Source: Peltaster fructicola
Taxonomy: Eukaryota; Ascomycota; Dothideomycetes
Reading direction: 5' to 3'
Length of the DNA: 64,000 bases
Assembly: GCA_001592805.2 (NCBI GenBank)
Contig: CP051140.1
Coordinates: forward strand, 2,357,501-2,421,500
The notes under the pieces were generated by a model. It saw only the letters and a list, made by a program, of their open reading frames with translations, did not search any database and was not told the origin of the DNA. Of this stretch, positions 1 to 755 are shown one piece after another. Position numbers and translations under genes: made by a program. Each line of letters opens with the position of its first letter. The stretch's first letter is position 1.

Positions 1-755
1 AATCCGACACGCCCGAGCACAGCGTAGAGAGTCTCGGTGATTGTGGGTCCTAGTTGTTTGAACATGTAGTCGGCAAAGGCACTCCCTCGGTGAGGTGTAG
101 CAACTGTTGTGAGTGATAGGATCCGGATATCATCCGGCTGCATCTTAGAGATCATGAATCTAGCATCCAGCCCGCTGTGCATGATTAGTACTTTGAGCAG
201 AGTCTTCTCTTTAGACGAACCCCTGTGAGGAAGTCAGCAAGAAAGGCCATCATAGAGCTAATGTACTGACCATACTGTGTCTAAGAATGAGTTAGTAGGC
301 AAACAACGTGATCGTAACAAACGAACGTACGCGATAACATTGACACCTCTGTTTCCAGCGGCGCTTCTGATCTTCTCAGCGAGCTTACCAGCTCTCTCCT
401 CGATACTGCCACTAGGTGGAACGGTCGCGATGATGACATCGATACCCTTGGCTGTGAGAGCTTCTGTGATACCGCTCCAGTACTGCAGGCCTGGCAGCTT
501 CCATGATCCAAAAGCTGGTATGACGTGAAGCTCGTCAAAACCCAGCAGACCATGGGCCAAGACTAAAGGATGCTTTGGTGCCTCGTATGCTTCTCTCAAA
601 GCAGCGAAGTCATCATGTATGATGCGCGCAGTCACCTCGTCCTTCAATCTTGGGTCGCTGAAGCGCTGAGTTGCAACATGAAAGCATGCTGCGTTCGAGG
701 CGCGTCTGGTGAGTTGCGCCTGTCTCAAGACAGTCGCGATAGGTCGTACTGACAT
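1..755 (-). CDS. Triacylglycerol lipase-like alpha/beta hydrolase, N-terminal part (gene runs off the left edge)
   Basis: Serine hydrolase of the fungal lipase family that would cleave acyl esters. The start at 755 gives an Arg/Ser-rich N-terminus resembling a mitochondrial presequence (inference). An oxyanion-type segment, LVLAHGLLGFDEL, follows, then the nucleophile motif. Exons by splice signals: 755-331, 280-271 (10 nt), 222-221 (2 nt), and 174 to beyond position 1. Joined, these give AHSMGGLDARF with the catalytic Ser near residue 144, followed by a region containing TTVATPHRGSAFADY, typical of these lipases. The three introns are 50, 48 and 46 nt, each with GT...AG and a good branch site (CTACTAAC, TTGCTGAC, TACTAAT). 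The catalytic Asp and His lie outside the window. Family assignment is firm; the 2-nt exon is inferred from frame and motif. Confidence 0.8.
175..330 (-). other. Three adjacent short introns enclosing a 10-nt and a 2-nt exon
   Basis: Read on the minus strand: donor GTACGT at 330, acceptor at 281, exon 280-271, donor GTCAGT at 270, acceptor CACAG at 223, exon GG at 222-221, donor GTTCGT at 220, acceptor CACAG at 175. Without the two G residues the downstream lipase frame meets a stop within a few codons. With them the conserved Ser-Met-Gly-Gly-Leu-Asp motif is complete. The layout resembles a recursively spliced or twin intron. Confidence 0.7.

Follow-up and report, generated by a model that had tools for sequence, protein, structure and literature searches.

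Predicted 10-nt and 2-nt exons at the catalytic serine of a lipase gene in the ascomycete Peltaster fructicola

A lipase gene at the start of the window (the whole 64,000-nt stretch of Peltaster fructicola contig CP051140.1 that was analysed) is predicted to contain two ultra-short exons, of 10 nt and 2 nt, which together encode H-S-M-G, the nucleophile elbow, and which lie among three introns packed into 156 nt (330-175). We give a probability of roughly 0.88 to the reading as a whole, namely that ordinary introns surround the H-S-M-G exons, that they are recognised by intron definition and removed sequentially, and that this ancestral layout has been misread by gene predictors. The analysis shows directly the sequence, the near-uniqueness of the splice solution and the clustering of gene-model breaks at these codons. 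The gene and its parts are as follows, in window coordinates, with negative numbers for positions past the window start.

755..1 and on past the window start, minus strand: lipase gene, DUF676/alpha-beta hydrolase, 'lipase 2'/TGL2-like, ATG at 755
281..330, minus strand: intron 1, 50 nt, GTACGT...TTAG, branch-like TACTAAC at 297-291, splitting the Ala142 codon GC|A (phase 2)
271..280, minus strand: predicted 10-nt exon ACACAGTATG, last base of Ala142 followed by His143 Ser144 Met145
223..270, minus strand: intron 2, 48 nt, GTCAGT...CACAG, branch-like CTGAC (in TGCTGAC) at 237-233, after Met145 (phase 0)
221..222, minus strand: predicted 2-nt exon GG, bases 1-2 of the Gly146 codon
175..220, minus strand: intron 3, 46 nt, GTTCGT...CACAG, branch-like CTAAT (in TACTAAT) at 188-184, within the Gly146 codon (phase 2)
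-359 to -406, minus strand: fourth intron, 48 nt
-432 (L002:4568), minus strand: stop codon

Intron 3 is followed by the last base of the Gly146 codon (C|GGG CTG GAT), and the mature mRNA would read ATCGC-ACACAGTATG-GG-CGGGCTGG, with ATCGCACACAGTATGGGCGGGCTGG as the predicted spliced junction. GG (222-221) lies between two GT-AG introns with ordinary signals, as an ultra-short (micro) exon would. The coordinates, the lengths of 50, 48 and 46 nt, the GT...AG ends and the 10-nt and GG exons all agree with those of the first-pass annotation.

With the three clustered introns and the fourth one taken out, the gene encodes 331 aa without a stop, and its remainder is intact and in open frame. The fully spliced protein has the marks of a DUF676/family I-like lipase: its DUF676 score of 30.9 bits exceeds the Pfam cut-off (20.3 bits), and it passes the Abhydrolase_1 cut-off as well. 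It shares 53-62% identity over 82-100% of its length with 119 relatives among the best 120 of 4,126 matches, which are fungal wherever an organism is given and many of which are named lipase. A profile (A2) built from the 331-aa product and 13 relatives matched solved bacterial lipases (e.g. 1cvl) across the GHSxGG, NDGLVS and HLDxIN blocks; HSMGG, NDGLVS and HLDLIN of the product align with these, forming a GxSxG-like elbow with Asp and His blocks, in which the elbow motif begins with Ala, not Gly. We take the Ser, Asp and His of these blocks to be the catalytic residues, as in other lipases, and Ser144 is accordingly the predicted nucleophile. A search of the P. fructicola genome for a second copy of the lipase found none, and an Rfam search of the window gave no match. 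The published assembly is reported to comprise 18.99 Mb on five chromosomes, and its introns to have a median length of 50 nt (PMC7181583).

The adjoining gene, encoding V-ATPase subunit G, also has a short exon, the 9-nt CACGAGAAT (1355-1347), which is flanked by introns of 72 and 50 nt (window 1427-1297, minus strand), and its joined product matches PF03179 with 114.6 bits. In Aspergillus hancockii, model P0254 is a V-ATPase G fused to the lipase, which suggests that the genes are neighbours there too, in the same order as in window 1670-1.

Splicing between 420 and 100 was explored exhaustively with 370 GT/GC-AG candidates of 25-220 nt, combined in sets of none to three with the last intron fixed. 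Only 3 of 79,541 frame-keeping sets were open and encoded HSMGGLD, and all three contained 270-223, GG and 220-175, so that the conserved segment was rebuilt only with the GG exon; the solution with the donor at 330 yields NVIAHSMGGLDAR. The earlier claim that AHSMGGLD depends on the full splice set is therefore upheld for these elements and refined in one respect, other open frames existing without the motif, and the stop predicted upon skipping GG alone does appear, within five codons. Among the eight retention states, the frame stayed open only when intron 2 was removed or when all three were; retained introns 1 and 3 amount to 96 nt, i.e. 32 codons without a stop. Merged removal of 330-175 (156 nt, both tiny exons skipped) was open too, giving NVIA-GLDAR, and so were 67 of 125 single-intron frame-keeping solutions. 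An open frame was therefore rejected as proof of the GG exon by itself: since two other patterns also stay open, it is homology, not the frame alone, that requires the 2-nt exon.

Splice-site matrices were derived from 88 introns of 269 kb by open-frame bridging, with the lipase locus excluded; against this RNA-unverified and somewhat noisy set, introns 1, 2 and 3 scored at the 49th, 98th and 26th percentiles. The strong branch sites of the first-pass annotation were recovered as TACTAAC, TGCTGAC and TACTAAT, 10-11 nt before the intron ends, the mode of this distance in the 88 introns being 10. Equally scoring GT-AG pairs (40-65 nt) occurred at 0.51, 0.006 and 0.94 per kb per strand for introns 1, 2 and 3, respectively, so introns 1 and 3 are individually unremarkable, and intron 2 had the top score of the three, branch and acceptor included. 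A survey of the 269 kb for chains of tiny exons returned 12. Some were variants of the lipase locus, and the others were two-intron candidates from three further places; every one, the lipase locus included, was flagged as having a simpler open solution. As it demands 40 open codons on each side, this survey misses genes with short exons (among them the 9-nt exon of V-ATPase G) and says little on rarity.

Comparison of protein models from related fungi points to the same 12 nt. We classified 285 relatives from three overlapping protein searches (the best 120 of 4,126, 1,398 and 3,072 matches), leaving out P0001, the database model of the present gene. In the first search, which used an intact query, 28 of 41 Dothideomycete and Eurotiomycete models were broken at the serine motif versus 0 of 37 Leotiomycete and Sordariomycete models among the best 120 of 4,126 (Fisher test 2.6e-11, with species that are not independent); none of the 39 proteins without an organism name was broken in this list, and its 2 lichen fungi were intact. 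Over the three lists, of which the second and third came from broken queries and are biased toward broken matches, 78 of 92 Dothideomycete models were broken (54 without exactly HSMG, 13 leaving the motif right after Met, 11 otherwise), as were 78 of 102 Eurotiomycete models (36, 29 and 13, respectively). Exactly HSMG, the loss expected from joint skipping of the 10-nt and 2-nt exons, was thus missing in 90 of the 194 Dothideomycete and Eurotiomycete models listed, and 38 of the 194 were intact, so some species of these classes may be without part of the layout. Elsewhere in the three lists, breaks were found in 0 of 19 Leotiomycetes, 0 of 20 Sordariomycetes, 0 of 46 proteins without an organism name, 2 of 5 lichen fungi and the single Xylona model (1/1). 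Vezdaea, counted here as a Lecanoromycete, stands in its own order taxonomically, which leaves the groups compared above unchanged.

Models of one and the same species can differ at the motif. Ten pairs were compared: A. niger P0237 and P0232 are identical in all 254 of 254 other aligned residues and differ only at the motif, P. nodorum P0018 and P0136 agree in 380 of 382 other aligned residues, and the remaining pairs are 74-100% identical, the Pfam matches changing accordingly. P0031, an uninterrupted frame on a contig, matches the Pyrenochaeta model P0153 at 98% identity, with HSMG present in P0031 only and two other residue differences, which would fit P0031 being a spliced cDNA. Many of the HSMG-less Dothideomycete and Eurotiomycete models probably share one common gene-model error. 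The motif is lacking from database lipase models P0008, P0071, P0100, P0105, P0136, P0153, P0232 and others; the four tested of these (P0105, P0136, P0153 and P0232) reached no Pfam cut-off.

The way in which the models break bears on whether relatives have one tiny exon here or two. If they had a single 12-nt exon, models should either hold or skip HSMG; instead, 44 models keep HSM and depart after Met. In 23 of 23 models with one residue between AHSM and GLD, that residue is Ser (13) or Arg (10), and among broken models keeping GLD, Ser or Arg precedes it in 45 of 56, the 11 exceptions being C (5), N (2), G (2), I and T; 12 further broken models are without GLD altogether. Both residues can be encoded by AGN, as if the predictor had joined the acceptor AG to the third base of the Gly codon. 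Judged from these protein models, the intron 3 acceptor seems to be at the same phase in relatives, with two bases missing after ATG. The clustering of breaks at these 12 nt and the Ser/Arg replacements make it probable that the 2-nt exon is old and widely shared, the DNA layout in relatives being deduced from their protein models. A contig search with one protein found no locus in a fungal relative, a search of viral contigs found none either, and the 80 loci kept of 487 in a search with A2 were all titled as bacteria or archaea.

The model P0001 has a different structure: of the three introns only intron 2 is removed, introns 1 and 3 are read through, and GG is not a separate exon. The serine motif is missing from it, and it stays below all Pfam cut-offs (DUF676 11.3 bits versus 20.3). 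The published P. fructicola annotation is reported to have used RNA-seq (PMC7181583), so the pattern of P0001, which counts against the GG exon, would be RNA-seq-informed if P0001 is that annotation. Very small exons are reported to be difficult for automatic pipelines (PMC12940212), and the form of P0001 is therefore what an automatic model could produce; the top score of intron 2 fits its being the first to leave and also fits a predictor picking the best single intron. In one alternative, the cluster would be an old splicing switch kept since the Dothideomycete/Eurotiomycete ancestor: removal of the 156 nt in one piece or retention of introns 1 and 3 leaves open frames lacking the catalytic serine, through which a stable, dead lipase could be made in place of an active one. 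We regard this as unlikely. That the gene is simply as in P0001, with splicing confined to intron 2 and the last intron, coding sequence in place of introns 1 and 3, and a 363-aa variant without the serine motif as product, appears very improbable. P0001 has exactly this form, the 32 added codons hold no stop, and with so many single-intron solutions open (67/125) it is an easy choice for an ab initio predictor; however, the 363-aa product falls below every Pfam cut-off, introns 1 and 3 have full intron signals, and the residues missing from it are intact in all 37 of 37 Leotiomycete and Sordariomycete models among the best 120 of 4,126 matches.

In the preferred reading, with ordinary introns around the H-S-M-G exons, three U2-type introns of ~50 nt each would be recognised singly across their own length. 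In Pezizomycotina, the pairing of splice sites reportedly takes place across introns, i.e. by intron definition (PMC6616335), and exon length would set no limit because recognition spans introns. The objection that a 2-nt exon is far below what exon recognition allows holds under exon definition, but it loses force in Pezizomycotina, which are reported to be intron-defining, and a 1-nt Fusarium exon has been published. The intron 3 donor lies two bases past the AG of intron 2, and the two sites would hardly be bound by spliceosomes at once; the donor region GGG|GTTCGT overlaps that AG by one base, which makes removal in turn likely. Intron 2, having the strongest signals, would probably leave first. 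Actual splicing and the order of removal are what we infer here, and neither order is forced, because the donor GTTCGT is already whole while intron 2 is still present, and the three bases upstream of it are GGG whether or not intron 2 has been removed. The layout was probably present in the common ancestor of Dothideomycetes and Eurotiomycetes and would have been misread by predictors in many genomes.

The first-pass annotation had likened the cluster to spliceosomal twin introns (stwintrons); its 10- and 2-nt exons, lipase assignment and catalytic-serine motif are supported, but the likeness to stwintrons does not hold. Stwintrons are nested such that a splice element of the external intron is split by the internal one (PMC5639578). 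Here none of the three introns has a split element, the intron 3 donor is complete in the primary transcript, and 270-175 taken as a single unit loses GG and runs into a stop; on our own reading of the definition, a stwintron has no exonic bases between its introns, and GG is required. Recursive ratchet splicing, in which an acceptor is juxtaposed to a donor (PMC8605326), was likewise set aside, CAG-GG-GT having two exonic bases. An obligatory order of the stwintron or ratchet type, favoured by an AG and a GT only two bases apart and unlikely to be used simultaneously, is accordingly very improbable. An assembly error or pseudogene, by which two exon bases were lost from what is truly one ~96-nt intron, is scarcely credible: a 2-nt slip is conceivable in long-read data in principle, but the published P. 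fructicola assembly, if the DNA is taken from it, went through three polishing rounds using Illumina and Nanopore reads (PMC7181583), the remaining gene is open, the branch and acceptor of intron 2 score highest of the three, and the models of many other genomes look as though the same two bases were missing.

Ultra-short exons have been described before. The closest case is the 1-nt exon of Fusarium CYP621A, shown with RNA reads and in 20 Fusarium orthologues, for which, according to the methods of that study, all automatic transcripts except one had errors at the motif (PMC12940212). As here, an ultra-short exon in a short-intron ascomycete supplies part of a Gly codon in a conserved motif; that exon, however, is a single one within Fusarium, whereas the lipase has a 10 + 2 nt tandem at the catalytic serine with signs of sharing by two classes. 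An Arabidopsis 1-nt exon (PMC4674806; gene APC11 as cited in PMC12940212) is similarly too short for exon definition, but it is a single tiny exon in a plant, and exons of 2-5 nt are known from other kingdoms, as cited by PMC12940212. Dactylellina lipS has two 3-nt exons (PMC5639578) and, like the present gene, is a lipase-type gene of a fungus with tiny exons, but it belongs to another family (Pfam07859) and is described from one species. The small exon of Trichoderma Xlr2, also from a filamentous fungus, differs in its regulated inclusion in a transcription factor (PMC11121469); regulation of the lipase exons would be only speculation. The stwintrons [D1,2] and [D5,6] are likewise clustered short Pezizomycotina introns, removed stepwise as is probable for the lipase introns, but they are nested with an interrupted splice element, whereas the lipase introns are adjacent, complete and separated by exonic bases (PMC5639578, PMC6616335). 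A record-level literature search on tiny fungal exons, in which subscription journals were thinly covered, found among the records listed neither the tiny exons of this lipase nor any fungal 2-nt exon. The GG exon is no size record, 1-nt exons being published (PMC12940212, PMC4674806); unusual are the 10 + 2 nt tandem, its location in the nucleophile elbow and the signs that two classes share it, and new here is that models of relatives break at the same 12 nt.

In Aspergillus, Penicillium, Alternaria, Cercospora and Parastagonospora, a number of lipase models are without all or part of the catalytic-serine motif, so that activity predictions and domain counts for this lipase family are unreliable there. 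If confirmed by RNA, the GG exon would be shared unusually widely for an exon so short, would show that intron-defining fungi can keep a 2-nt exon for long, and would make it possible to study in nature how splicing copes with an acceptor and a donor only two bases apart.
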